From Amphibalanus amphitrite (Eukaryota; Arthropoda; Thecostraca; Balanomorpha; Balanidae), in the NCBI RefSeq assembly GCF_019059575.1, contig NW_024881691.1, positions 62,001 to 126,000 of the forward strand: a stretch of 64,000 bases of DNA, read 5' to 3'. Both the position numbers and the translations under genes were made by a program. Positions 18,801 through 43,455 of the stretch are shown one piece after another. Every line of letters starts with the position of its first letter. Within the stretch, counting starts at the first letter, position 1. The notes under the pieces are model-generated. The model saw only the letters and a program-made list of their open reading frames with translations, searched no databases and was not told where the DNA came from.

Positions 18801-21320
18801 ATTGTTTATAAGTAGCTATCAAAGAATGATCCATTGACACTCTAACTAATACGCCAGGCATTGAACTCCAGCTTCCACTCATCCTTCTTCCACGGAATCC
18901 CTTCTGAAAAAGTGCCGCTGCCGGCCCGCCGCGGAGCCGTTTATTTGGGAGCGGTGTGGGCGGTTCCGAGCGCCTGCCGCTCCCACGACGCCATTGACGC
19001 ATACCGGCCGCGGAGAGTGCCCCGCTTTACGAGTGCGTCGCCACCGCGGCCGGCTCCGCGTGCTGTATGTACGCGGAAGTCCGGTGGCCGGCGGCGGCCG
19101 CAGTGCGCTCCGAGCTCCGGCTCCCATCGTAAACCGGCCGCCGCCGAAAAACCGGGGATGGCCGGCGCCCGCGGCGGTGCCGTCAGCGGCAGTGGACATA
19201 TCCACATAAAGAATAACTTACCGGAGGGTGTGGCAAGGAGAAGCACAAGAGGTAATGCAACTTGCAACAAAAGATTTCCCTCGCAGTCGAACTTTGTTAA
19301 GCATAACAAACTGGTACGATTAAGTGATTTTAGAAATCACGCGTCACGCTCACCATTGTTTTTTTTGTGTGTGTGTGAACATTTAACTTTGTTTTGCCAA
19401 GGCATTACATTCTTATTTCTTACTTGTGTGACCGTACTGACGAATGCTTTATGGCTACCCCTTAGGCTTTCAAAACCAGTCGCGAACGGGGGCGGCGTAC
19501 CCCTCCCGCCTGCACGGTATGCACCGAAAGCCACTGGAAGAGGTCCTGAACGACTCCTACTTCGCCCGAACGGCAATCCGGGCCACGCAGCTGCTGCAGA
19601 AAAGGTGAGGGAACGGGGAGGAGACTGGAACTAGAACGGGAGAAACAGGTGTGAGAGAGAGAGAGGATGAGAGAGAGAGAGGGGGGGAGAGGGAGAGAGA
19701 GGATGAGAGAGAGAGAGAGAGAGGGGGGAGAGGGAGAGAGAGGGAGAGAGACACAATAAACGCGTTCAATAGAAAAGTGAGAGATATAAATAGCGCCGCT
19801 TTGTCCGCCGCTCTGGACAATTGTTTCTGTCCGGCCGGTGTGATTGGAGCGATTTTCGATATGCCGCGATCGGCCGACTCCATCGGTCTCCGTCGGACGG
19901 ACAGTGTCGGCTCCCGTTGACCGTCACGGCAGCGGGCGCCACAAAGGATCGGCCGGCACGGCGACCCGGCGCCACTAATTCGCCCTAATTGCGCCGCCGC
20001 CGGGTACCGCAATAATAACATCAGTCTCGGAACGGAGGGGTGGCCGCCGCTCGGCCCCGGGTCACCGGTCGTTTGTCGGCGCCCTGTCCGCAGGCTGGCG
20101 CTCTCCGGCGCCGAGGTGGCCTTCCGTCTGCCGCTGTATGACCTGGCGGCCACCCGGCTGGGCCGCGTGTGTCCGCCGCACCACGGCGCGCGCTACCCGG
20201 CCTGCGACTCGGCCGCCCGCTACCGCACCGCCGACGGCACCTGCAACAACCTGCAGTTCTCCTGGTGGGGCAGCGCCCGGTCGGCGTTCGTGCGCCTCCT
20301 GCCGCCCGACTACGGCGACAGTGAGTACCCAGTATCACCCCGCCCAGACCACCGCGGGCGCCCGCACGGAAACACAAACAGAGGGAAGTGCAGTTCTCAC
20401 ATGTCTGTTTACGAGCGAGCGAGCGCAGCGAGCGAAGTGAGTCTTTTCAATATAACGGAAAAATCTCAGTATGAGCGGCCCGGCCCGGCCCGGCCCGGCC
20501 CGGCCCGGCCCGGCCCGGCCCGGCCTGTAACGCTTTTGAGAGGCTTATATCTCAGCAACCGCTGGACCGATTGGCCTGCGGTCTTTTTTGTTGGGTAGCC
20601 CCATCCCTTCTACCCCGTAATTGACTACTTTTGATACATCTCAGTGACCGTTGTGGCACGTGCCACGTGAAAAGTCAAGGGTGTTCAAGCTGTTTTGCAA
20701 AAGTAGTGATTTTGAGAGGCTCATATCTCAGCAGCCGCTTGGGCGATTGACTTGCGGTAGTTTTTGTAGGGTAGCAGCATCCCTTTTACCCAAAATAGGA
20801 TACTCTCGATGCATGTGGGTCACCCCCAGTGCACGTGCAAAATACAACAATAAGAGGTGCCAAATTTGCTCCCATTTCAGTAACTCGGTAATTACTGGGG
20901 CGATTTCGCTGAAACTTGGCATACAGGTAGGCACCCACCAGGCAATGCATTCCCATGTGTTGCGGTTAGGGTGCTACTGCACGTGCGCACGTGCAGGGGG
21001 CGTTTCCAGATCTCGAGAACGGCTGGGCCGATTGCGCTCAAATTTGGTACACGGTTGGTGACCAGTTAGTAGGGTGCCGTGCAAAAGTCATTTTGGACCC
21101 CGTTTGCACGTGCGCACGTGCAGAATGCCGCTTCCAGATCTCAGGAACGGCTGGGCCGATTGCGTTCAAATTTGGCACACCGCTAGCGACCGGTTAGAAG
21201 GGTGCTTTGCACAAGCCCGTTGGAAGTACCCTCTCGTTGTATGTCTGTGTGTTTACGAATTAGCTGCTTGATGTGTTCATCATGGACCAGGACTCTGCCA
21301 ATAAAGGGATTTCTCTTGGT

Positions 21321-21404
<84 letters not shown>

Positions 21405-24400
21405 ATTTGAGCGTCTCTCCTGCACCCAGTGTGCAGGGACCAGCGATATCTCACCAAAGTGTCGCCGTTGACAGAGGATCGCGTCTGGTATTTATTGAAT
21501 ATTCACTCATGTCTCCAATGCCCAATGGTGCACTGCATACAGGGACTCCCGCTAGAAGGTTGGTTATTTGCACTGCTATAAGGGAATTTCCCGAACAATA
21601 TAACAATCGATACCTACATATAGTGATTTTCTATTTTGGAATGAATGGCCGTGATATACGGATATGTAGTGGCCGTGATATACGGATATGTAGTTTCAGG
21701 CATGTTTGAGAAACATCCTTGCCTATTTTTGTCTTGCCTGACAACGACAAGGATGTCAAGAGTGACTTTACTTTAATTACGTTATCTAATTGTTTGCTCC
21801 AGTTCAAGCGTGCTATTAGAGCTTCCCATATCTCAGTATCTACCTACTTGGCGATTTGCGTGCAATTTTACGATTTTAGTGACTGATAATTTCCTGAACG
21901 CCAGCTATAATTGCCCGTCAGAATGACGAGGCCCCTCATCTGCTCAATGGGTCCTTCATCATAATTCTCAGCACTCGTGCGGGCATTCCGGATTTCCAAT
22001 GGCCGGTTTCTGACGGGCACAAAGGCTGCAGCCTTGTTCGTCATTGCACCCGATCAGTCTCTGACCACTCCCCTCCTCTTCTTCCCGTCTGCCCGGCGGG
22101 CTGCGGCCGGTCAGTGCCTCCCCTAATAGCGCTCCATAGCGTCCGTCGGCCGGACCACCTCCCTCCCTCGGCCGGACCACCTTTTTGCGTCGGCCGGTGC
22201 GTCGCCGCGACGCTTTAGCACCGTTACCAAGAAGTAACGAGCCAATTATGCACCCTGTGTTTACTCGGCCGGCTCGCTCGCCGCACCGACCAACTACATA
22301 TCCGTTTTTCTTGCGACGCCGTCGGCAGCGTGCGCCGGGACGGTCGCCGCCGCGCCGGGTTATGGGAGCGATTGTGGCCAGCCGGCGGCTATCGCGCGCG
22401 CGGCCGCCACCGCAGAACGCTGTCGGCCACCGGCGGCCGGCCGTGCGGCGAGATTATTTACCCACGGCTCGGCGAAGGGAACTGCTCCGAGCGCCGGCCA
22501 GCCACGTGCACCACTGCTGGAAACGAGCCGGCCCCCGAGCGGAGACGGCCGTCGATGACATACAAACTGGCCGCCCGCCGCGAGCGGCGCTGGGCCGGCC
22601 CTTTATCGGCGCAATCATTCACTGCACGTCCGCGGAGTCGGCGGATTATCGTAAAACGGCTGCACCGACCGCCCCAATCGCGGAGCATTGAACTGTTTAC
22701 CCACCGTATGAGGTGTACGATGACATGCAACGGAGATATGGGTCGCTGGCTCGACTCAATCAACTCAGAGAGGTGACTGACACACCGTACAGGTTCATCT
22801 ATCTCCCCTCATATCAGAGATCGCTACCGTCCGCCTGCCCAGCACCGTAACAGCTGTCTCATTACAGCTGTGCTGCTGTCATAGTCAGTCAGAATTCATC
22901 ATACTGCCTATTGACAAGAAGAACATTTAGAATGTCCATAGCTATGCAAATTCGACTATGCGAACTACCTGGATTGGACACTCGTTTTTGGCGCGAAAAA
23001 TAAGAGGCCACTTTGGCCTCTTATTTTTAATGACGGATTTTTAATAAGTATTTTAAGAGGCTGATATCTCAGCAACCGCTGGGCCGATTCGCCTGCGGTC
23101 TTTTTTGTTGGGTAGCTCCATCCTTTTTGCCCCGCAATTCACTTATCGTGGTGCGTTCATGGGTGACCGTCGTGGCACGTGGCACGTGACTAAAGTTGGG
23201 GTGTTCAAGTCGTTCAGCTGGAGTAACTATTTTGAGAGGCCTATATCTCAGTAACCTCTGGGGCGATTGACTTGCGGTAACTTTTGTAGAGTAGCTGTAT
23301 CTCTTCTAACAAACATTGGATACTCATGATGAACGTGAGTGACCCCCGCTGCACGTGCGAAGTGCAAAAAACAGAAGAGGTGTTATATTTGTTCCCATTT
23401 CAGTAACTCAGCAACTACTGGGGCGATTTCGCTGAGACTTGGCATGCATGTAGGCACCCACCGGGCAATGCATATCCGTATGTCATGGTTGGGGTGCTAT
23501 TGCACGTGCGCACGTGCAGGGGTCGCTTCCAGATCTCGAGAACGGCAGGACCGATTGCACTCAAATTTGGTACACGATTAGAGACCGGTGAGAAGGGTGC
23601 CGTGCAAAAGTCAGTTGGGACCCATATTGCACGTGCACACGTGCAGGGTGCCGCTTCCAGATCTCGAGAACGGCTAGGCCGATTGCGCCCAAATTTGGCA
23701 CCTCGCAAGAGACCAGTAAGTAGAGTGCCTTGCACCGGGTAGGTTGTAGCTCTGCGCGTGCTCACGTGCTCACGTGCACACCCCTCTGTCATATTTTAGG
23801 AACGGAGTGACCGATTGCAATGAAATTTGGTGTGTGATTGGACGCTGGATGTGTACGAGTTTTTCTGAGTCGATGAAGGTGAGGTAATGCACGTGCGCAC
23901 GTGCAGGGGTCGCCTCCAGATCTCGAGAACGGCTGGACCGATTGCGCTCAAATTTGATACACGATTAGAAACCGGTGAGAAGGGTGCCTTACCAAAGTCA
24001 GTTGGGACCCATATTGCACGTGCGCACGTGCAAGGTGCCGCTCCCACATCTGAAGAACGGCTGTGTCGATTGCGATCATATTTGGGACACCGCAAGAGAC
24101 CAGTTGGTAGGGTGCCGTGCACCGAGGAGCCTGTATCTCTGCGCGTGCTCACGTGCGCACGTGCACACCCATCTGTCATATCTTAGGAATGGACTGACCG
24201 AGTACAATGAAATTTTGTGTGTGAATGGGTGCTGACCGTGTATGAGTTTTTCTAAGTCGACGAAGTTGTGCTAAAGCACGTGCGCGCGTGCACACCGCAC
24301 ACCCCATATTTACAGCTAAAAACGGACTAGCCGATCTCAGTAAAAGCTGGTGTGCGATTGGGAAATAACAAAGTGCATTTATTGTATGCTCCAGCACTGA

Positions 24401-27400
24401 GTATGCATGTGCGCAAGTGCACACCCAACATTAACAAGCTGAAGGCAGATTTCGATCAAATTTGCCGTGCGATTAAGGGATAAGGTAACAAATGCATTGA
24501 CTGTGTGCATCAGAATGGGTGTGAGTATGCACATATGAAGGTGCACAATCCATTTTTAGAGCTGAAAAACGGGCAGAGGCTGGTGGTGATCAGATTCGGG
24601 TCATAATCGATAGCGTAGCTCGCTCAGACTGGGGATTTCAGTCAGGTCAGGTATATACCTGACCTGACCGTACTACCCAGCCTGAGCGAGCTACGCTATC
24701 GATTATGAACCGAATCTGATCACCACCAGCGTGCTCGTTTTGTCAGCTCTAAAAATTGGGTTGTGCATATTCACACTTATTCTGATGCACACAGTCAATG
24801 CAATTTGTTGTCTTATCCCCTAATCGCACGGCAAATTTGATCGAAATCGGCCTTCCAGTTTTTAAGCTGTTAATGTTGGGTGTGCTCGTGCACGTGCGCA
24901 CGTGCATAAGCACACCTTCGCGACTTAGAAAAACTCATACACGGTCAGCATCCAATCACACACCAAATTTCATTGTAATCGGTCCGTCCGTTCCTGAGAT
25001 ATGACAGATGAGTGTGCACCTGCGCACGTGAGCACGCGCAGAGCTACAGGCTCTTCGGTGCACGGCACCCTACCAACTGGTCACTTGCGATGTGCCAAAT
25101 ATGATCGCAATCGACACAGCCGTTCTTCAGATGTGGGAGCGGCACCTTGCACGTGCGCACGTGCAATATGGGTCCCAACTGACTTTGGTAAGGCACTCTT
25201 CTCGCCGGTCTCTAATCGTGTGACAAATTTGAGCGCAATCGGTCCAGCCGTTCTCGAGATCTGGAGGCGACCCCTGCACGTGCGCAGTCGCACGTGCATT
25301 ACCTCACCTTCATCGACTTAGAAAAACTCATACACATTCAGCATCCAATCACACACCAAATTTCATTGCAATCGGTCACTCCGTTCCTAAAATATGACAG
25401 AGGGGTGTGCACGTGAGCACGTGAGCACGCGCAGAGCTACAACCTACCCGGTGCACGGCACTCTACTTACTGGTCTCTTGCGAGGTGCCAAATTTGGGCG
25501 CAATCGGCCTAGCCGTTCTCGAGATCTGGAAGCGGCACCCTGCACGTGCGCACGTGCAATATGGGTCCCAACTGACTTTTGCACGGCACCCTTCTCACCG
25601 GTCTCTAATCGTGTACCAAATTTGAGTGCAATCGGTCCTGCCGTTCTCGAGATCTGGAAGCGACCCCTGCACGTGCGCACGTGCAATAGCACCCCAACCA
25701 TGACATACGGATATGCATTGCCCGGTGGGTGCCTACATGCATGCCAAGTCTCAGCGAAATCGCCCCAGCAGTAGTTGCTGAGTTACTGAAATGGGAACAA
25801 ATATAACACCTCTTCTGTTTTTTGCACTTCGCACGTGCAGCGGGGGTCACTCACGTTCATCATGAGTATCCAATGTTTGTTAGAAGAGATACAGCTACTC
25901 TACAAAAGTTACCGCAAGTCAATCGCCCCAGAGGTTACTGAGATATAGGCCTCTCAAAATAGTTACTCCAGCAGAACGACTTGAACACCCCAACTTCTCA
26001 CGTGCCACGTGCCACGACGGTCACCTGAATGCACTACGATAAGTGAATTGCGGGGCAGAAGGGATGGAGCTACCCAACAAAAAAGACCGCAGGCGAATCG
26101 GCCCAGCGGTTGCTGAGATATCAGCCTCTCAAAATACTGATTAAAAATACGTCATTAAAAATAAGAGGCCAAAGTGGCCTCTTATTTTTCGCGCCAAAAA
26201 CGAGTGTCCAATCCAGGTAATTCATGTTATCTATGCTTTTACGTATCTGTGCCTATGTGTTAGACAACAATACACGCCGTACCACTTCCCTCAAATTATT
26301 ATTTTTTTTTTGCTACAGTTCTATAATTTCATGCTCAAAATTATCAGAAAGGAAAACAATATTTACGTTTTTAAATATTTTCATAAAGAAGAACTATTTT
26401 CGGTATTTGGTAGAGGCTATATAGTGTTTGCAGCGGAAGCTGATTGCATATTGACCAATCATATCACCTTATAGCTCCGTCCATACTGCATGCTGATTGG
26501 CTGATGATTGGCCTCTACCACAGATGGCTCCATCCTTGGCATTCTTCTGTAAGGGAAAACTCCTTCGTAAACCGTAAGGAAGTGATTTGGAAACGAGAAA
26601 TGGAATATCTTTTCCTAGAGCGATCGTTCGGCCGCAAATGCTCCTGATTTGTATTATATAGGGGAGAGTGGGGTAAGATGCCCAGGGTGGGAAAGACGCC
26701 CCACCCCCTCTAGCGACGAAACAAAGAATCGGACCTGGAAATTAATGTTCTTAGCGTAAAGCGGAAGCCTGCCTTGTTAACGGCACAAAAAATTGCGAAG
26801 CTCAGTTGGGCAACGGCTGGCTGATGACTGCATGTTTTTTATTTGCTGCTTTCAAAAAATATTTTGGTGTCAGAACATTGTAAATATCAAAGAAGGTAAA
26901 TAATTTTTGCGTCCCTTGCTATAGTCGTGATACATTAGCATGCGTGTACTGTGTCCCAAACAGTTTGTTTCATGGTGTAGTTTTATGGCTAACAAATTGT
27001 ACTGATTTAATGTTACTTCGGTACCTTGGGGTAAGATGCCCCCTGTCCTGATGGGGAAAGACGCCCCCCTAAATCCGTAGGCTGTCCTTCAAACAGCCCG
27101 TCAAATCATTTATTACATACTTGTGATGTAGACAAAAGCCGATCTGGGACTATTGAGAGTCCAGTACGGTCGGGTGCTCCCCATGCCGGTCTCTCGGCCC
27201 ACATAGCGACTTTTTGGGCGGCATCTGACTCTGAGAGCCCTCACGACGGCCTCTGTGGGCCCAATTATTGGATCCAGGGCCCATCACGACATCCTTTGAG
27301 GGCTCCCACGTTGGCCCCACGGGCCGCACTGGCATCGGAGGTCCCCACGATGGGCTCGAGGGCCCTCAAGCATCATGAAGACCTATAAGAGCCCCACAGT

Positions 27401-30400
27401 GGTCTCCGAACGCCACCACGGAGGCTTGTTTGGCCGCGCTGGACTATGATGGCCCTAACGATGACCTCTGAAGCCCCTTACGACTACTTTTGAGGGCCCT
27501 TATGATGACGTTTGGTGTCTACTGCAGGCTCGAAGGGACTACTGATTCGTTCAGGCGATTCACGTGCCCATTTATGTCACTTTTAGTGCAGGGGGCATCT
27601 TTCCCAACGTCAGGGGGCGTCTTTCCCACCCTGTTGGGTAAGATGCCCCCTTTCACTTCTTCAGGAAAATGCTTAATAGCAAAAAAAGTAATAATATTTC
27701 AGGCACGAAAGTGTGATATTTTTGGAGAAAAATGATGTCGGCTTCCGTTGAAACTCCAAGTTTTTGCTTTCCCATCGTCATTTTCGAATAATATATGACA
27801 TAGTAAAACCCTGGGCATCTTTCCCCACTCTCCCCTACAACTCAAGCTACAAAATTGCCATTTCAGTTAAAAAACCCATGTTAGTGATATGCTTTCTTTA
27901 AAAGCTGTCATATGTCTAAAAAGTGATTAAAAACTAGCCAAGAGCACTACCGATTAATTTAAAGGGACCCTCCCACCTTCAAAAAAGTTAATGAATTGGC
28001 ATGAAAGTGATGTCGCTCGGTTCAGAAAGAGCAAAAACGAATATCTACCAAATTTCATCAAAAAATATTCACCGGTTCTCAAGATATTAGACTTTTACTT
28101 TTGTTTACTTTTTGGGATCTCCGCTGTTCCTAGCGACTTTATTTGAAAGTGCGGCATTTGTTGCGCGCAAAGCAGCATTTACCACCGCGTGCTACAAAAC
28201 GTTTTAGTCAAACATTTAAAAATCGTTAGATATCTGCTCTGACGTCACACATTCAGAGGGGTATTCCTATGCATTAGCCCCTCTGAATCAAAATGCTGCA
28301 ATTTTGAAATTCAATATTTCCTATTTAAGGCATTTCTCGATGTTGTGAGTGCCGAAACCGGTAATTGTGAGCCAGGGACCCCATTTTGGCTATCTCAACT
28401 CAAATCTAATGTTAAGGTGGGAGGGTCCCTTTAATGAAAATATTTACGCATGCATCTGTAGATAGGTAACTGAATGATGAATGAATGAATAAATAAATAA
28501 ATTAATAGATGAATGAATGGATGAATACGGGAATTAATCAATGTCCCAATGACTGAGTGACCAAATGAATAAATGAGTGAATGAATGAACGAGTGAATGA
28601 ATAATTTGAAAAGAAGAAAAAAATAGATAACCTGAGCTTTCAATATTCACTCCTTAACAGCACCATAAATGTGCTATGCGACACAGTTTTTCCAACTACC
28701 CCTGCCCCTGTACCCTTTGACAGAGCTGCCCCCCGTATTCTGTAACAGTTATCCCCAGTAGCACCCACTGTGCCTTGTGCCAGAGGTGAACAGCCCGGTA
28801 ACATTCCCGCTGTGTTCTGTGCCAGAGGTGGACAGCCCGGTAACGTCCCGCTGTGTTCTATGCCAGAGGTGGACAGCCCGGTAACGTCCCGCTGTGTTCT
28901 GTCCCAGAGGTGAACAGCCCGGTAACGTCCCGCTGTGTTCTATGCCAGAGGTGAACAGCCCGGTAACATTCCCGCTGTGTTCTGTGCCAGAGATGGACAG
29001 CCCGGTAACGTCCCGCCGTGTTCTGTCCCAGAGGTGGACAGTCCCCGGTAACGTCCCGCTGTGTTCTGTGCCAGAGGTGGACAGTCCCCGTGCGGCGGCG
29101 GACGGCTCGGCGCTGCCCAGCGCCCGCCGGGTGAGCGCCGCCTGCCTCTCTCAGCCGCTGGTGGTCTCCGAGCTCTCGGAGAGGATCTCGCTGATGGTGA
29201 TGCAGTGGGGCCAGTTCCTCGACCACGACCTCTCCCACACGCCCATGAGCACAGGTCAGCGGCGCCCCCCGCCCCCGCCGGTTATCTTTCAACCAACTGC
29301 GCGGAATCTGTTTGTACTGGGATCGTTCTTTTCCTCCTTGTTTGTAAGGGCTGGCTCGTCAATACCCGTTCAAAGTTTGATGTCAAACAGTCTCGTATGT
29401 ATGTAAATGCAATGCAAAGCATTCTGTGGTTGACGGTTCCGTCTAAATCTTGATGTGATTTCTGTGAGTCCTTATCGACATAGTTAGCTTTGAATGAGAT
29501 TTCAGCGGATTTCTTAGAGATTCTGATAAGTGTGTCGAATAACAGAACAATGGCCAGTCTCCTTACATAAGCCCGTCGTGCGTTCCGCTGATGATCCGTT
29601 CTGTCGGCGCCGGTGCTGTATTTGGCCGTGTCTCTGCGTTTTCAGCCACCCTGTACGGCCGGCCGGTCTCGTGCTGCGGGCTGTCGGACCCCGGCCAGCA
29701 CCCGGACTGTTACCCGATCTCGGTGCCGCGCGGGGACAGCCTGTACCGGGAGCACGGCCAGACGTGTATGGAGTTCGCCCGCTCCGTGCCGGCCCTGCAC
29801 AACGGCTGCGGACTGGGTGAGTCGTCTGCCGCCCATCCAGAGCCGCCGGGTGTTTAGTGAAGCCCGCTCCCCGCCGGTTGTGTTAACTGATGCTGCCGTT
29901 ATCCAGTGTCGCTCGGTTGTGATTGACAGCTTTCTGTGAGCGTACTGACCAATATTTATCGCAACACTGTTTCCGTGCGTTGAACTTGTTACGCTTCCGT
30001 CGCCGTATATCTCTGCGGCGATTTGCGGGCATTGTTCCGGGACATACGGTCTAAGGCTGTTTGCGGCGTTAATTGCGCCGGTCAGCCACCTGCCGTGGGA
30101 TTAATGGCACCCTTTGCCGAGAACCCCGTCCATGCATCGGTCGTCAGGCGGCGGTCATTACGTGCGAGGCGGCCGGCGCGCGGGCGGAGGCTACGGCGAG
30201 CCGCCCCCGCTCCATCACCGGACGGCGCCGAAATTGGACCGGCAACCATCAACAAACGGACGAGCAGACAACTATTTGTCATAGTTCTCGCCCATACGCG
30301 CTCAGACGGCGACATAAAATATGGCTCGTGTGGTGAATTAGCCGAAAAACATGCCCTAAAACGAGTCACAAAAACCGGCGGCTCACTAACATATCGTATA

Positions 30401-33400
30401 TAAATGTCGGGGCGGCGTGGAGAGCCTCTAACAAATACAGAGCTACCGTGGCGTGTGCTGAAAAACTTGAAACACGAGACTCCGCGGCTACGGCAGAACT
30501 CTATGCGATACCCTTCTATCGACTTGGCAGTGATTGTGTTCGATAATGGCTATCAGCAGGCGCGACTGTGGCTTCATTTACCCCCTTCACGCTGGATAAT
30601 TCCTAATGCCTCCTCGGACTGAGGAAGCACGGTCATCAGCTCCTAATGACACGGCATGCCACCACAGGCGCATCAAAACTGACCAAATCAAGGCGTCATT
30701 TCATAGTCGTCTGGGCGCCAGTTATTCGTTTTTTGGGCTAAATTAGGATGCTTAATTAGCGGCACGCTGCCGTCCCCGCCAGGTCCTCGGGAGCAGGTGA
30801 ACCAGGTGACCTCCTACATAGACGGCTCGGTGGTGTACGGCAGCTCGGACGCCGAGATGAGCCGGCTCCGGCAGTTCGAGGGCGGTCGGATGAAGACGGA
30901 GGACAGCCGCCTGCCCACCACTGAGGACGAGGGGGGCTGTATCCGACAGCGCAGAGACGTCCGCTGCTTCCAGTCGGGTGAGTCGCCGGTGGTGGGAACA
31001 CTCAGAAAGGGTCGGGTAGTGTGAGTGCAGTTAGCGCCGAGTCCAATTACAGCACACGAGGGCTTAGAGTACATTATTGTGGGCGTTGTTTTTCCTTTTG
31101 TATAATGAATGTCATCGGCAAGGACATATGATATCCATTCCCTATTTTTTATACCTAAATCTTAACCATGTCTTAATCAGAGAAAGGGCCGTTTTTAATA
31201 TGAAAATACCAATATGAATAAATGGAGCACATGTAAGTGCCCTTGATATTTAAACATATGACACTTAACATATGAAACAAAGCAAACCTTTTTCAAGCAT
31301 AACTTAAGGAGAACACAGTGTACAATTGAAAACTATATGATACACGATGCCGGAAACGGGGCATACACTCCACCAAAGCAGTACGATATGAAGGCAATCA
31401 GTGCTACTGTCGTGTGCTGCGATGAAATCTCCCGCTGGTCGCGCGCCGTGCGGGTGTTAGCTTGTATTGCTCCGATGCAGTCACCAGCGGTGGCCTGGGC
31501 CGAACGCAGTAGGAATTGGGAGGATGCCACTCGACGTCGGAACTCGGATTAGCGATAAAAAATGGCCCAGCAATCAATGCGCGTTGTCTTGTCTGTCCTT
31601 AATCACTGCGGCACGCTAAAACTAATAGAGGCCAGAAATGAACAGGTTATATATAAGTAAGTCAACCAACTTGAAGCTCAATTGCACGCATTCCATGTCC
31701 AGAAGATCTGAAGTGACGCACGTACCAAATTACAACAAAATATTTGTGTCATTAGCTCATTGCTCCTTGGTATCGTAGATCGTTGGGAAAACTAGGAAAA
31801 CTACACCATCTTATTTTGACCCCTCCTTTATGTCTACTTTTCCCGTGCCGAGTCGCTCGCATAATCTTCGCCCTCTCTCTGCTCTGTCCCCTGCCAACCC
31901 TCTGAAACCTTCCCCAGGCGATATCCGTGTGAACGAGCAGCCGGACCTGACCACCCTGCACACTCTGTGGCTGCGAGAGCACAACCGGGTGGCCGGCCGA
32001 CTGCAGCGCTACTGCCCCGCCTGGGACGACGAGACGCTGTTCCAGGTGAGACCCGGGGCCGCGGCGGGGACCGGGCCGCAGTCCCGCCGCCGGAACCGGC
32101 GTGCACCCGCGCCCGTCATTAGGGAGCGCTGCACGGGCACTGACCGGGCTGAGAACACTGTGCAGGGGAGGACGGGGCACCGGCCGCGGCGCTACGCCGG
32201 CCGGAAAGCACTGTCATGAGCAACAGTGATGGACACTTATGAGGCATTCCCAGACTTTCCGGTTCTCAGTCGTAAGAGGAAAGCATCGTTGTGCAAAATT
32301 ACTTTCTGCTGGGAAAAGGCACATGTGACATAGCGTTATTACTAGACCAGACAGACGATGTACATTTTTATGCCGGAAACGCATTAGTCTTGGGAATTCG
32401 CTTCGGCACACTAATCCACCTTTGGATGCATCCAATATCAAAATCTTCAAGTTTCTATGCATTCCAAAATGATTACGCAGAATGACAACATTACTTTACC
32501 TTAGATCGCCTATCTCGAAGTCCGATAGTATCGCAGAGACAGTTGAGTGACGTCGAATGCCGTGTGTCGGACGCGCACCTAAACTGCAGTCAGGATCGTC
32601 AACCAGCTAGCCCACACTGACGGCCGACCCCTGACTTCACCAGCGGCAGTCCTGACTGATGAATTCCTCACTGTCAGACGGCTTAGGTGTTCACCTCGTC
32701 GGACAACTGCTGTCCCGCCCATCCGTCTCTGTTAGGAGTCCCACCGGCTGGTCCCAACTGGTTGTCTCGTCTCGCCCCACCTCGTTTGTCCCGCACAGGA
32801 GTCCCACTAGTGTCCCCGACTGACTGTCCACTGTCCGCTCCCGTTCTGTTTGCCCCACTAAGGAATCCCCCCGATTTCCCCGACTGACTGCACTGTCTAG
32901 CCCTGTCCGTCTCTGGATTCCTGCAGGTCTTCCTGTCTGAGTATTGTCCCGTCCCATTCGTCCCTGTCCGGAGTCTTGCCGGCTGTTCCCGTCTGACTAG
33001 TGTTGCCCCATTCCGTCTGTCTCCCGACTGACCGTCCGGTCCCGTTTGTCCCCCTATCTCTCCCAGGAGTCGCGCCGTCTGGTGGCGGCCATGCTGCAGC
33101 ACGTCACCTACCGCGAGTGGGTGCCGCTGGTGGTCGGTCCCCGGCTGGCGGCCCGCCACGGCCTGCAGCCCCTCCAGGAGGGCTACTTCAGCGACTACAG
33201 CCCCGACGTGGACGCCACCATCGCCAACGTCTTCGCCACCGGAGCCATGAGGTAGGTCTTCCAGGGCATCCAGTACAGAGAGACGATTAGGGGAGCGTAT
33301 TTTCAAAGACACAGCTGCTCCATAAATATGGAAAGGCGTAAACAAAGGCTATGCTAATGTTTTTCTTGCTTTGCTGCATATTTTACTCGTATTTTATCTA

Positions 33401-36400
33401 GCTGACATTTAATAATAATATTTGAATACAATGGTCCATTATTTGATCCCACGCCTGTCTCACTCCTATTATTTGCATTGCATGTTACCATGCAACAAAC
33501 GGATTTAGTCGAAAGAATTCGTATATTTGTAAACGGAGACTTTTTATCATTATTCGAGACCCTTCTTAATTTTTAACTTACATAAGAAATTGCATATCAA
33601 CAATTATTTTCCTCCTTAGATGCAGATACCGTTATAATGCTTTCGTTAACAATGCTGCAAAATCAAATAAATCCGTTTTAAGATATTTCAAACATATTTT
33701 CATGGTCATAGTTGTATTGTACTGATCGCCGTACGACTCCGTTCTCCAGGTTCGGCCACACGCTGGTGCCCGACCACCTGATGCTGTTCACCCCCTGGCA
33801 CACCAAGCTGGCCGGCGTGGCGCTACACAAGAACTTCTTCCGACCTCACTCGCTCTACCACCCCGGCAGGATAGACGAGTACATGGCCGGTAAGGGTATA
33901 CGATAGATAAGTGGATTTCGGTACTACCTAGTGAATACATGGGCACGGTAGATTAATTGCCCGTCTTCGTAACGACACAGAAATGCCATCCGAAAGGTCA
34001 GGTAATCTACATATTTAAGTCACAATTATGTGATGACGAGTTCATGATGTCAGTTCCCATGCTATATTTAGGTAGGACTGTTTGTCCCTGCCCAGTTTTA
34101 ATGACGGCATTGAAATTGAATTTCACCGTGCATTGTTGTCGACGTAAGAATGATGAGCATTTACGGTTTGATTTGACAAATAAGCGTTACTGGAGATCGT
34201 ATTGTGGTCTCCGGTGCCGATTCATATCTTAATAGCGCCCGTGAACTTTACAGCTCGGTAAGTGCCCTAGTGATTTAATGACTGCTCTGTGTATAGAGCC
34301 AATTAGAGGAGCGCCGGCGCAGAGTGTCTGACTAAAAGAGTGGTCCATTTCCTGTCGAGTGACGTCGCGAAGTGAGTGACCTCTCCCGGTGACCAGTCGC
34401 GGCGCGATATGAACCCGGACGGCCACCGCAGGCCCTCGTCCCGACCGGCGCGCTGCGCGATAACATCGGCGTCACTCGACTCATTGGACACATGTAACCT
34501 TTAGAAGGCTAATTAAGCGGCTGTAAAACCATCTTCCGGTCAAATATTCGTCTTGCAGCATTCAACAAATGTCGTCCTTAAAACGCGAATCGAAATGTTT
34601 TGCTATCCGAACTGAAACCCTTTTCAGTCTTCTCGTGTCCCTAAACATATATTTTATCTACACATACGCGAAACCATCCGACTGTCCATTTCGTGTTCCA
34701 GGCCTGGCCAACGCCAACAGTAGCGAGGCGGACAACTACCTGGTGGATACGATCCGTAACCGTCTGTTCGCGCCGCCCGGCGCCGCGTTCGGCCTGGACC
34801 TGGGTGCTCTGAACATCCAGGTGAGGTCCCAGTGTCTGTCCGGCGGTCCCACGGTGGGAGCGCGCGCGGCGACTCCCAGCGGTCCCCAGCGCGTCCCAGA
34901 GCGTCCCAGCCGGCCGCCCAGGGGACCGCCGCCCGACACCGCAATCAGCGTCCCAGCCGCCGCCGACCAAACAACACAAATGAAGCGCGGTCCATTTTTT
35001 GCCGAACTGACGAGCGTCGCTCCGGGCGGCGGCCACGGGTCATGACCGGGAGCCGACGGTGTCCCACGGACGGTGAATTAGCCGTGCATCGCGGGCCGCG
35101 GTCAGCTCGGGCGCAGCGGCCGCCGGCTCAGTAAGTGATGGCGGGGGCGGCGGCGGCGGCGGGGGCGACTTCCTGCGGCCGGGCGCGCGCCGTCACGCTC
35201 GTAAAAAGCGGCCCGAGGTGCGCTGCTCGCGTCGGGTGATCACCGTGCCGACCTTGGAGGGCCACACGCCATCGGCGGTCGGCGACCGATGCAGCCACAC
35301 GGGGGCCGTCACTGATTCACCCACCGTCAGCCGGGGTAGGAGCTGACCCCTGCCCTCCTACACTGTGAGAGCAGGGGAACACACATGTGGGAATACGTCT
35401 ACCTCGTGTGTTTAACGCCGCATTCATGGAACATTCCGTGGCTGTTGCGAGCTTTAATGCAAAATTCTGCAATGTGTTGGTAATCGTGTGCACTGTGCAG
35501 TTCGTTGGCATCAGCTCACGTCAGGGGTCACGGGTGGGTGCAGGTAAGCATGTTCAGCGTTACGGCAACAAAGCAGCGCTTTACACGCTGCTGAAACTGT
35601 TTTAGTACGGAGATGACTCGGCGTTTGGACCGCAGTTGTGGTGCACAAACACTGACGTTATGGGCTGGTGCGGTGTTGTGGCAGTGTAACGATTATTCAC
35701 GGATAACAAGATGGCAAAATAAGCGACGTTTTCTCAGAATATATGACCACACAAATATGAACCACTGAAGCACTAAGAAGTGACTTCGTGAAGATATCGA
35801 GCGCGCTGACACAACTACACAAATACACCAATACCTGACCTGACCTCGTGTTTCTCACTCTGACATCCTGTTCCTCTGTGACCGTAACCACTCTCCTTGG
35901 TATTGACCTTCCCCTGTCACATCCGTGTCGCCCAGACCGTTCTGACCGCCGTAGCGATCTGACCATGTCATTCGCCCTGTTTCAACGGGGTCGGGACCAC
36001 GGCCTCAGCTCTGTGCCGCACTGGGCGCGTCCCTCGGCCTGGTCCGTGTCCCTCAGACTGCTCTGACCTCCGTGCTGCACTGACCGTGCCCCTCGCCCTG
36101 TTCCAGCGGGGCCGGGACCACGGCCTGCCCAGCTACGTCCAATGGAGGCGCGCCTGCCGCCTGACGCCCGTCGACAGCTTCGCCCAGCTGAAGACGGTCA
36201 TGAGCCCGCTGGCGGTGGCCAAGCTGATCACCACTTACAAGTAATGGGCCGTGGCGGTCTTAATCATGATGAGGGCCGTCGGGACGGAACGGAACGAATC
36301 GTCACGCCCCCCGTTTTTGCAGCGTCTTCTTTAGAGCCATCACTTTGATTCATGACATCGTTTCGGATTTTATTGTCACCGGGCATGCATGCGGTCTGTC

Positions 36401-39400
36401 TCATATTTCATGGCGATATAAGATCCCGCCCGGAATGTGCTGTATAACGTAATTGCAGCTGCCCGTTTAGTTCCCCCTATGTCCGGGAGGTGGCAGCAGT
36501 GTCTATGGCTGACGGTGGCGCCGCCTCGGTAGGGACCTGGCCGACGTGGACCTCTACGTCGGCGGTCTGCTGGAGACGCCGCTGGAGGGCGCCCTGGTCG
36601 GGCCCACACTGGCCTGTCTGATGGCCAATCAGTTCCAAACGCTGAGGAGGGGCGATCGGTTCTGGTACGAGAACGGCGACGAACGCCATTCGTTCACGCC
36701 AGGTCAGTATTTTCTTTAGGATCGGCGGTCACACTGCGCCAGTATAGGACCGGCGGTCCGTCAGGTCAGTAAAGAGCCGGCGCGGCGGTCCGTCAGGTCA
36801 GAGTCAGGTCAGCTGGCCGTGGGAGCAGAGGTTCTCATCTACTACAGGTCAGCTGGACCGATAGCCGAACCAAACCCGTCTGGGACAGAGCCGAGCTGTA
36901 GCCAGCTCCAAACCGAGAAACGACGAACGGCGGAGGGGCAAAATTGAGGCCCGAGGCGGCCTCGGCACAGTCCGACCCCGAGCTTAGAAACTTCGGAAAT
37001 CTCGCCCTGCTGACAAAACACGTGCACGACGCACTTTCTGAATAACGTCTATAAAATTGGTCCCCTGCCACCCCAGGATGTGGCAACTCGCGGATAGTTA
37101 TACAGATGTCGTTATGATCGGGAGCTATCAGCTATCCAAATCTATGTACCGTATCGGGGCACATATTATGTCTTATTGTGTATGATGAGCAAAACGTAAG
37201 CGGTGACCATGCCTTCGTATGTAAAATATCTCCATCCCGGCATTTCAATGGTTTTCAACAAGAAGAAGTAGCACATGCCATGTCCAAAGTTTCTGCAGCA
37301 ATGCCTTCCTATAAATATGAATGTCCTCAATTCAATTCCAGGAACTATTTACAAACGTCGATTTTACCGATGCATCCGTAACGAGCGTATGTCATTGGAA
37401 TCCGTGAAGAATCTCAGCGCTGTTCAATTGCAAACCGTCCTCGAACGGCTTGGGCTGATTGTATAACGCTCGTTTGTATCGTCGTCACGACAGGCTGGCC
37501 GGTTTTCGGCGTGCCACTGGACGTGAGCCGACACTGAATAATCCATCGGATGGAGCGCATCCCGATGAGCGTCCCACTGCCGAGTATGTGTGCAGTGTGC
37601 AAATGGAGAGCCACTCCCTGACTGTCGGATGGCGATTACCGGACGGCTCGACCACAGACCCAGCTGATAGAGGCGCTACAGCTGGCCTCCGCACAGCTGA
37701 TAGAGATGCCCCTCCACCGCTCAGCTGATAGAGATGCCCTTCCACTGCACATCTGATAGAGATAGCCGCCCAGCTGACAGAGTGGTCCAGCCTGGCTGGC
37801 AGAGCTGCCCGTTTAACTGACAGGACTGTCAGTCCCAGGACTGGAGGGCTGACAGGATCTCCGCTCTCCACAACCCAGCTGATCCATTCACAGCTCAGCT
37901 GACGACATCCCCGCCCTCTCTCCACAGCCCAGCTAATCTCTGTCCCTTCTCCCCACAGCCCAACTGAGGGAGCTCCGCAAGGTGACCCTCTCCAAGGTGA
38001 TCTGCGACAACTCGGCTCTGGCCACCATCCAGCCCGACATCATGTTCAAACCAGACGACACGTAAGTGGTCGTCAGAAACTGTCAATCGCTTTAGCAATC
38101 GGTCAATCAAATAACAAACACAGTGACATTTATTGTCGATTTCGTACGGTGCGTGAGATTGAGGCTTGCGCTATTAAGTCAGCTGTTAGGCAACTCTGCA
38201 TACGTGCAGACACTTACTGAACATCTGAGTGTTAGCTTGAGTTCTTGGCATGCCTGGCTGTCGAGGACCAACTACTTCACCAGCCTCGACGACCCTCGAA
38301 AAGCGCGATGCCTCATGCATCTTTGCGAGGTCTCTCCTGCTGACACGTTTCCGCCTATCGCAGGTCCAATCAGCGCGTCAAGTGCCGCCACCTGCCTGCG
38401 CTGGACCTGCGTCTCTGGGCCTCGGAGCTGGGCTGTGTGGCGCCGCAGCGCCCCCAGACCGGGTCCGGCGGCCGGCCCGGCCCGGCGCGGCCGCCGCCGT
38501 TCTGGCCGGGCGGCCGGCCCGCCGGCGGACCCACGCCGTTCCCAGGAGGCCCTCCGCCGGCCGGCAGCACTCCGCCGCCCACCAGACCGGCAGCAGGCAC
38601 CGACGACAGTCTGGAGCGGCCGGTGTTCCCCGGCTCCGAACCCACCGAGCCCGTCACACCGACCGGCGCCGGTCCGAGCACCGGCCCGGCGACCTCCGAC
38701 GGACAGCCGCCCAGCTGGGAGCCCCAGCCGCCCTCACGGGCCCCCGCGGTCGAGCCGCCCGCACAGGTGGTCCCCGTGGACCCCGCAGTTCTGCCGCCAT
38801 CCGAGCCGACCCCAAGCCCCGCTGTGGTGCCTGTAGACCCGGCGGTGTGGCCGCCCTCCAGGCCGACTCCGGGACCGGCCCCGCTGCCGGAGATTGCCGT
38901 GGACCCGCCGCGGACCACCACCCCCAGACCGACACCCGGTCCCGCCGTGATCCCGGTGGACCCGCCGGTCCTGCCGCCCGCTGGTCCCACCCCGGGACCG
39001 GTGGCTCCGGTGCCCGTGTCCCCGCCGCTCCTGCAGCCGGGTGAGCCGCTGCAGCCGGCGCCGGCCCCGCTGCCCACGCCCGGTCCTCACCAGCCGATCC
39101 ACCCTCCGGTCCTCCCACCGGCGCCGGCTCCGACCCCGGGTCCCGGCGGGGGAGTCAGACCGGTCCCACTGCCGACTCCGGGACCGCACCAGCCGATCCA
39201 CCCGCCCGTGCTGCCGCCGGCCCCTGGCCCCGGGGCTCAGATCCGGCCGACTCCCGGCCCCGGGGCTCAGATCCTGCCTGCCCCGGTCCCGGACCCCGGA
39301 GTGGAGGTCCTGCCGACTCTCGGCGCAGGGGCACAGATACAGCCGCCGGTACAGCCGCCGCCAGTGCCGTTCCCGTCCCGTCCTACACCCACCATGATGA

Positions 39401-42400
39401 TGTCGGCGATGACGCTGACCGTGCCGGCCGCCCTGTGGCCCACGGCCCCCGGAAAGCAGCTGGTGATCGTAGCCGGCCGGCGGCCCGTGGTCACCATCAT
39501 CCCGGTGCCGCGGCCCGCTCTCGGCGGACTCACGGCCCTCAGCTCTCTCCCACCCGCGGTCATCTTCCCCTCGAGGGAGAGCAGCGGCGGCGGAGGAGCG
39601 CCCGCGTCCGTCTCCGGGACTCCCACCGTGCCAGCGATGACGATAGAGGCGACGGGGAGCTTCACCACGCTCTCTGTGCTAACGTCACTGACGGCGTCAG
39701 TGTCTGTGACGCCGGTGACATCCGCAGTGCCGGCGACGTCAGTGGTAACGCCGAGGCCGCCCCCGATGCCGGTGTTCCCGCCGGGCTTCGACCCCGACTT
39801 CCCGTTCATCCCGCCGGGCGAGTCGATTGAGATCGAGCCCACCGACACGGGACCGTCGGGCGGCGAGACGACGGTGACCATCCCGGAGATCGGCCAGCCG
39901 GTGTACCCCGACACGGAGGACGCTGAGCTGTACCCGGACTACCTGCAGCCCGGCGTGGAGCCCGAGTACCCAGACGGGGGGTGGGAGGAGGTGTCCGTGC
40001 CGACCTCACCCGGCGGCACGCAGCCGCTGCCGCCCGGCCCGACCACCGACTTTGACTACCCGACCATCCCGGCCGGCGAGTCGATCGCCATCGAGCCGAC
40101 CGACACCGAGTACGACGACGGGCCGCCGACGGTGGTGTGGGTGCCGGACGCGGCGCTGCCCGACCGGCCCGGCTCCTCGCCGCACCTGGAGCCGTCCGTG
40201 CAGCCGGCGGGGGCGGCCGGCGGGCCCAGCACCGCCACCGCGGACCCCGCCGCCGGCCGGCCCGGCCTGACCCCGGCCATACCCGCCGGGGCCGCGCTGG
40301 GCACCGCAGTGTCCTCGGTCCCAGTCGGAGCCACGGAGAGTGGATCGGCCTCGTCCATCCTCACTGGCGTCACATTGGAACCTTCCGTGTCGTCTATATT
40401 GACAGGAGCGACTCTAATTCCCTCTCTCACGTCCTTCACGATTGGAGGGACATTTAGGCCGTCCATTTATCCATTCATTACTGGGGCCACACTTCGGCCG
40501 TCGATATCTTTTGGTACTGGAGCGACGCTGGAGCCCGTGATTACATCAATCCTTACTGGGGCTACTCTTTGGCCTTCAATATCTTTCATTACTGGAGCGA
40601 CATTGACACCGTCAGTTACTTCATTCGTTACTGGCGTGACGCTGAAACCGTCTATATCGTTTATTACTGGAGCGACACTGAAACCATCTTTAACGTTTAT
40701 CACTGGAGCAACACTGAAACCGTCCGTTACTTCTTTTATAACCGGGGCGACACTGAAACCGTCCGTTACACCGTCTATTACTGGAGCGACACTGAAGCCA
40801 TCCCTTACTTCGTTCATTACTGGAGCGACGCTGAAACCGCCTATATCATTTATTACTGGGGCGACACTAAGACCTTCTGTTACATCATACATTACTGGAG
40901 CGACACTGAAACCGTCCGTTACATCATTCATTACTGGAGCGACACTGAAACCGTCCGTTACTTCATTCATTACTGGAGCAACACTAAAACCGTCTGTATC
41001 ATTTATTACTGGAGCGACCTTAAAACCATCCGTTACTTCATTCATAACTGGAGCGACACTGAAACCGTCCGTTACTTCGTTTATAACCGGGGCGACACTG
41101 AAACCGTCCGTTACTTCGTTTATAACCGGGGCGACACTGAAACCGTCCGTTACTTCGTTCATTACTGGAGCGACGCTGAAACCGTCTTTAACGTTTATCA
41201 CTGGAGCAACACTGAAACCTTCCGTTTCTTTGTTCATTACTGGAGCGACACTGAAGCCGTCAGTTACTTCCTTCATTACTGGAGCGACGCTGAAACCGTC
41301 CGTTACTTCGTTCATTACCGGGGCGACGCTGAAACCGTCCGTTACTTCGTTCATTACCGGGGCGACACTGAAACCGTCCGTTACTTCGTTCATTACCGGG
41401 GCGACACTGAAACCGTCCGTTACTTCGTTCATTACCGGGGCGACACTGAAACCGTCCGTTACTTCGTTCATTACCGGAGCTACCCTGAGTCCCTCGGTCA
41501 CCTCCGTCCACCCTAGCGCCACCCTGACCGTTCCGTCCCCGGCGGTGACCCCGTCCCGGCCTGACCGACCACAGGTCACCAGCTGGCTGACGTTTGAGAC
41601 AGTCGTGGTGACGGGCCCCTACGGACCGGTCACGGCCATCCGACCGGGGTCGACCGCGGTCACCGAGCGCCCCTCGGCCAGTGCCGCGCCTCCGGTCACC
41701 GTGCGCCCCTCGGCCAGCGCGGCGCCCGTGATGGTGACTTCCATCGTGTGGTCGCGTCCGTCGCCGGCCGGCTGGCCGCCGCGACCCCGGCCCGGCCCGC
41801 CGCAGGTCACCATTATCGCCGGTCCGACGCCGACCATGGCGGGCGTGCACCGGCCCGGCGCCACGCTCACTATCGAGTCGGCGGCGGCCGGCGACATGGG
41901 CCCGGCGCCGGCCGTCCCCGTGCCCCGGCCCACGGCCACCCTGACCGTCACCGTCACCGCCCAGCGGCCGACCCGACCTGGCGCCGGCCGCCCGGGACAC
42001 GGGGCCACCGGCGGCGTCTACCCCGGCCTCGGCGGCTCGCTCGGAGGGTATCCTGGGTCTGGAGGAACGGTCGGAGGATATCCAAGTCCTGGAGGGTCAG
42101 TCGGAGGATACCCAAGTCCAGGTGGATCCGTCCAAGGATACCCTAGACCTGGTGGATCCATCGGTGGGTACCCTAGGCCCGGAGGATCGTTTGGTGGATA
42201 CCCCAGGCCCGGAGAATCAGTTGGAGGGTACCCGAGTCCCGGAGGATCACCTGGAGGATACCCCAGGCCCGGAGGATCGTTCGGAGGATACCCCATGGCC
42301 GGTCCGGCAGTTTACCCAACTCCGCGACCCCCGGCAGGACTACCGATACCATCTGAATCGAGCGAGCTGACACCGGAGGATGGTTCTGATAGCCCAGAGC

Positions 42401-43275: not shown

Positions 43276-43455
43276 GCGGATACGGGGGACGGGAGTCGCG
43301 GGAGGCGGAACCCGCCCTTCTGTCCGCCGTCCCACTGCCGCTGCTGGTGAGCGGGTGGGGCGAGCGGGAGTCGCGGGAGGCGGAACCCGCCCTTCTGTCC
43401 GCCCTCGCACTGCCGCTGCTGGTGAGCGGGTGGGCGAGCGGGAGGGGCGGGAGGC
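43234..43455 (+). repeat. Three 75-bp tandem copies of the peroxidase 3' coding end
   Basis: AACCC..CTTCTGTCCGCC begins at 43234, 43309 and 43384. The first copy is the true C-terminus with TGA at 43273-43275; copies two and three would encode [13 protein letters not shown]-stop or a near variant but lie beyond the stop. Confidence 0.93.

Follow-up and report, generated by a model that had tools for sequence, protein, structure and literature searches.

When a splice acceptor occurs several times in tandem, which of its copies opens the exon, and how did the others arise? This question is raised by intron 4 of an animal haem peroxidase gene in the barnacle Amphibalanus amphitrite, which lies within 64,000 nucleotides of contig NW_024881691.1 (positions 62,001 to 126,000 of the forward strand; this whole stretch is referred to as the window, and its coordinates are used throughout). 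The element concerned is probably a minisatellite of variable copy number that straddles the acceptor of exon 5 and whose upstream copies are decoys. Tandem Repeats Finder (TRF) reports a tandem array on the plus strand at 28776–29084 (period 41, 7.4 copies, score 505), in which eight units of 41–43 bp each carry CAG|AGRTGRACAG, that is, the acceptor of intron 4 followed by the opening 10 bases of exon 5. The core word CCAGAG[AG]TG[AG]ACAG matches the plus strand of the window eight times, and every match falls within the array (starts at 28780, 28822, 28863, 28904, 28945, 28987, 29028, and 29071). Both results bear out an earlier note on this DNA, which had described an eight-copy minisatellite of an acceptor and exon start, and the 10 coding bases that it had assigned to each unit do recur in every copy, provided that two A/G variants are allowed. 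As it had also proposed, the last unit (exon start 29075) is alone in running on into coding sequence, namely the exon at 29075–29254.

The numbering of exons follows that of the earlier note, and exons 1–3 were left unannotated. On the plus strand, exon 4 (20094–20320) ends GAC A|GTGAGT in phase 1 and is followed by intron 4 (20321–29074; 8.75 kb, phase 1), exon 5 (29075–29254; 180 nt), exon 6 (29646–29816), and exon 7 (30783–30977). Exon 5 opens CCAG|AGGTGGACAGT, and the two sides of the exon 4–5 join are both in phase 1 and in frame; this join shows that the unit holds both a splice dinucleotide and coding bases (CAG|AGGTGGACAG). The translation of exons 4–7 matches the animal haem peroxidase family PF03098 in Pfam (E 1.3e-65, 222.5 bits; curated cut-off 25). 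An alignment with myeloperoxidase spans the exon 4–5 junction without a gap, YGDKVDSP standing opposite YEDGFSLP, and a gap of 5 residues relative to myeloperoxidase follows immediately after YGDKVDSP, inside exon 5. Searching with the peptide of exon 5 gave 26 places, and with the window and its homologous contig (C780, described below) set aside, the remaining 24 fall into 15 groups, nine of which are pairs of closely similar loci and six of which are single. A phase-1 intron occupies the identical position in 9 of these 15 paralogous groups (printed sequences, read by eye), while five are uninterrupted there and one has an intron farther upstream. From the shared place and phase it follows that the intron is old, that the start of exon 5 is ancestral, and that the upstream units, and with them the array, are derived. 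These observations rule out a gain of the intron itself by tandem duplication. Taken with the exon 4–5 join and the myeloperoxidase alignment, they also support the claim that the repeated unit corresponds to the true acceptor and exon start.

Successive acceptors are separated by 42, 41, 41, 41, 42, 41, and 43 nt, and six different sequences occur among the seven inter-acceptor units, unit 1 being the same as unit 5. All seven of these units contain GTAAC. Copies 1–6 have AGCCCG where the exon version has AGTCCCCG, leaving them two bases shorter, as expected if no coding constraint acts on them. Copy 7, which has 16 bases in common with the exon start, retains the exon version and appears to be the latest duplicate of the last unit.

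The copies also differ in what a transcript spliced to them (all on the plus strand) would encode. Copy 8 (AG at 29073–29074), which the exon join, the myeloperoxidase alignment, and the intron position in the paralogues identify as the true acceptor, is alone in giving the normal protein, and a stop is reached from five of the seven upstream acceptors in the window. Copy 1 (AG at 28782–28783, exon start 28784, +291 nt) and copy 2 (28824–28825, start 28826, +249 nt) are in frame, but translation would end at a stop after 33 and 19 residues, respectively. Copy 3 (28865–28866, start 28867, +208 nt), copy 4 (28906–28907, start 28908, +167 nt), and copy 7 (29030–29031, start 29032, +43 nt) shift the frame, with stops after 15, 15, and 6 residues. 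The remaining two, copy 5 (28947–28948, start 28949, +126 nt) and copy 6 (28989–28990, start 28991, +84 nt), are in frame and free of stops through exon 7, and would add 42 and 28 residues. Splicing probably uses mainly this last acceptor (29074|29075), since it alone joins the full exon and yields the normal protein.

A second version of the array is found on contig C780. For about 66 kb this contig runs collinear with the window and the flank to its left; the main blocks have 85–96% identity and are interrupted by insertions. The array there comprises four units, of which three carry CCAG and the other has CCTG and lacks an AG, so that the comparison of copy number envisaged in the earlier note gives eight against four on two collinear contigs (two sequences, taken here as putative alleles). 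C780 is probably the other haplotype; two closely similar loci likewise occur in nine of the other 15 groups of peroxidases. Exons 4–9 are 95.2–99.6% identical between the window and C780 (99.4% for exon 5), and 361 codons compared without gaps show 14 synonymous and 5 non-synonymous differences and zero stops. With so few non-synonymous differences and no stop, both gene copies look functional. The upstream exon starts on C780 lie 136, 94 (the copy without AG), and 47 nt before the true one; all three are out of frame, and the two that have an AG run into a stop, and therefore an in-frame insertion is not common to the two gene copies. A whole-genome DNA search, in which very common words were possibly skipped, did not find the array outside this locus and the one homologous locus. 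Intron 4 of the window also holds two insertions with inverted-repeat ends that are not on C780 (26660–28434; by eye, about 26.66–27.84 kb and 27.96–28.43 kb). Tandem arrays of period at least 10 account for some 14% of the window and, on C780, for 7% of the 70 kb. For loci so rich in tandem repeats, the array itself appears unexceptional.

Several observations weigh against the reading of the upstream copies as decoys in a minisatellite that differs between alleles. Scored with a matrix of 17 acceptors (10 from paralogues and 7 from the peroxidase gene), a small set on which the finding of weak scores depends, all eight window copies (2.9–5.96) fall below all of the reference acceptors (8.2–15.3), and the true acceptor, at 5.22, is slightly exceeded by copies 4 and 7 (5.75 and 5.96). 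All eight acceptors are weak and the last copy is not singled out by sequence alone. Acceptor choice is thus a real question, as the earlier note had held, the true site not being the best-scoring copy, and with weak and nearly equal scores heavy use of the decoys is possible. The AG is intact in all seven upstream copies of the window, where decay would be expected if their use were harmful. Allelism is read from collinearity, and of the 15 other peroxidase groups six are represented by a single locus. Related duplications at exons 9 and 11 and in a paralogue, described below, mean that with the present sample there may be a bias towards acceptors. As to whether every unit holds a complete 3′ splice site, AG is present in all eight window copies, the true site included, and in 3 of 4 on C780, and the tract is weak by the 17-site matrix. 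In favour of the reading, the array RNA showed no sign of unusual folding (z 0.77), and the hiding of decoy acceptors by RNA structure was rejected for want of a signal.

GTAAC is suitably positioned for all copies except copy 1, whose AG-free zone does not contain it. For the true acceptor, the candidate branch point is the GTAAC at 29048–29052 (plus strand): within the 31-nt AG-free zone, the sole A residues are the two of this word, at −25 and −24, which is a normal distance for a branch point. On account of this position, GTAAC is better explained as a branch point than as a donor, which bears directly on the suggestion in the earlier note that each unit is a 14-nt micro-exon between CAG and GTAACG. 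CAG and GT do bracket 14 nt in copies 1–6, and on the window haplotype the frame would be kept by three such units (42 nt), or by one of 14 nt together with the 16 nt of copy 7. However, the donor-like CCG|GTAACG scores 1.87 (variants 2.4–2.6), below all 51 collected donors (5.77–14.1), a gap that is inflated because 45 of the 51 were picked automatically for consensus and both members of locus pairs are included; the six donors of the peroxidase gene score at least 7.1. A single exon of 14 nt would shift the frame; with no more than two such units on the homologue, the frame is never kept there, and GTAAC sits where a branch point is needed. Micro-exons are thus scarcely credible here, and that part of the earlier interpretation was abandoned. 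The idea that multiple branch points and acceptors draw the spliceosome to a weak exon after an 8.75-kb intron, with efficiency rising with the number of copies, would suit a true acceptor that scores below all 17 reference sites and a GTAAC in the AG-free zone of each acceptor after copy 1. Copy number is nevertheless eight on one contig and four on the other, and the weakness of the site comes from the 17-site matrix; such a function is unlikely. It is also doubtful, if conceivable, that each unit brings a branch point, a tract, and an AG of its own and that the number of units sets both the efficiency of exon 5 splicing and the share of products that are frame-shifted or extended by 28 or 42 residues, the two alleles of one animal then differing in peroxidase output.

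Regulated isoforms, in which copies 5 and 6 would be functional alternative acceptors supplying insertions of 42 and 28 residues, find some encouragement in the open frame of both copies through exon 7 on the window haplotype and in the score of copy 6, which equals that of the true site. On the other hand, none of the upstream starts of the homologue (136, 94, and 47 nt) is in frame, the insert would hit a conserved segment of the peroxidase domain, and copy 5 is among the two lowest acceptor scores (2.9), which leaves this explanation quite improbable. The array could finally be an artefact of assembly, as the earlier note had allowed, or a repeat inserted from elsewhere. Assemblies are error-prone at tandem arrays; here, however, six of the seven units are distinct and the two contigs carry arrays that differ in sequence and length, and an artefact is therefore unlikely, while the unit occurs nowhere else in the genome by the DNA search mentioned above, with its possible skipping of very common words. 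Overall, an origin in misassembly or insertion is very improbable.

The preferred reading, a variable minisatellite across the acceptor with decoys upstream, would begin with a tandem duplication that crossed the junction of intron 4 and exon 5 in the haem peroxidase gene. The founding piece would have comprised a tract poor in pyrimidines, the CAG acceptor, and 14–16 bases from the start of the exon, along with GTAAC as a candidate branch point. Later expansion and contraction, as in an ordinary minisatellite, could then have led to the eight units of the window contig and the four of the homologous contig. Coding constraint would hold the exon side fixed, and growth would for that reason be visible solely on the intron side. 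Nearly every unit would amount to a whole 3′ splice site, and the array may be tolerated because an acceptor remains after units are gained or lost. Growth of the array is most likely a matter of chance repeat expansion and would to that extent be neutral. The upstream decoys may occasionally be spliced, which would produce mostly truncated messages and, from copies 5 and 6 on the window haplotype, insertions of 42 and 28 residues.

Partial counterparts are known from other genes. The human CBS 31-bp variable number tandem repeat (VNTR), c.1444_1467+7(16_21), is a minisatellite across an exon–intron boundary with internal substitutions and variable copy number, and its unit comprises, by name, 24 coding and 7 intronic bases (PMC2630376); a table entry lists it under "exon 13-intron 13" (PMC1395315). 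Like this VNTR, the barnacle unit spans an exon–intron boundary and is minisatellite-sized (41–43 bp, eight times). Unlike it, the peroxidase array repeats the acceptor side and the exon start instead of the donor side and the exon end, and the gene and the animal differ. A second CBS allele, 844ins68, is a duplicated intron–exon junction of which the distal site is strongly preferred (PMC2630376, where the text says "donor"). That allele has two copies whose use was measured, whereas the peroxidase array has eight or four copies and is known from sequence. The title of the work by Romano et al. (2002) cited there refers to a 3′ splice site. By analogy, the distal preference in 844ins68 would support use of the last copy in the peroxidase array. 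The DDX3Y exon-T/MSY2 repeat, a minisatellite with three or four units, lies in the 5′ portion of a transcription unit and has alternative splicing nearby (PMC3039753). MSY2 supplies a transcription start, in contrast to the peroxidase array, which repeats acceptors. The AGGT model of intron gain is said to invoke tandem duplication of a segment with AGGT near splice sites; unlike in that model, the peroxidase intron is old (9 of 15 paralogous groups) and none has been gained.

No report of a comparable minisatellite of acceptors was found in open-access titles and abstracts, which does not prove its absence. The peroxidase array can be regarded as the acceptor-side counterpart of the CBS VNTR, with more copies than 844ins68. 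Two probable alleles with eight and four near-identical acceptors in one genome amount to a natural test of 3′ splice-site choice, in which exon context and position are nearly the sole differences among near-equal sites. If the decoys are used, a minisatellite would be tuning the output of a gene; if they are unused, an intact exon would strongly dictate the choice of acceptor.

Whether splice junctions are preferentially duplicated was examined by comparison with random points. In the peroxidase gene alone, a match of at least 26/40 is reached by 3 of its 9 acceptors and by none of its 6 donors, compared with 20.75% of 400 random points. A wider set gives 3 of 68 acceptors and 1 of 45 donors against 54 of 1000 random points; both members of pairs are counted, and two of the three acceptor matches are exon 11 of the peroxidase gene on its two contigs. 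With one member per pair, a match is seen at 3 of 48 acceptors and at 1 of 33 donors, compared with 31 of 800 random points in total and 38 of 300 within the peroxidase gene; in this set the member of the C406/C515 pair that was kept is the one with a match, which favours acceptors, and the loci L058/L059, which repeat the window gene, were dropped. Junctions called automatically are approximate in the wider and one-per-pair sets and in the donor set, and single-exon loci were excluded. Duplication targeted to splice sites was rejected, as the junction rates match the random-point background. The simplest account would be frequent tandem duplication that sometimes straddles a junction, with only intron-side growth surviving.

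Other duplications at or near junctions were seen. At 32736–33067, the acceptor and start of exon 9 (AG|GAGTC...) are accompanied by an old array of four degenerate look-alikes upstream (32736, 32799, 32863, and 32971), the count on C780 being three; four core words were reached in 0 of 2000 base shuffles, for a motif chosen post hoc. A partial copy of the acceptor and start of exon 11 lies at −121 (35986–36125) on both contigs, with AA in the window and AG on C780. In a paralogous peroxidase (locus L052 on contig C515, 1213–1541; L051 on C406 is similar), the gene's own intron 4/exon 5 junction is present in three diverged copies, which include as much as about 60 bp of exon. On the gene strand of locus L037 (contig C74, about 2125–2226), gggaacag|GTGAGA, which resembles an exon end with a donor, is doubled at a distance of 101 nt. 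The open reading frame at 38344–43272 had no Pfam match in the two stretches of it that were searched. A 39-bp repeat of coding length, in units of 13 residues, occupies 40585–41488 within an open frame of 1643 codons; this array is present on both contigs and gave no Pfam match. At 43233–43455 there is a 75-bp array of three copies (one on C780), likewise lacking a Pfam match, the unit of which closes an open reading frame and includes CTG|GTGAGC, which may be the end of an exon together with a donor.
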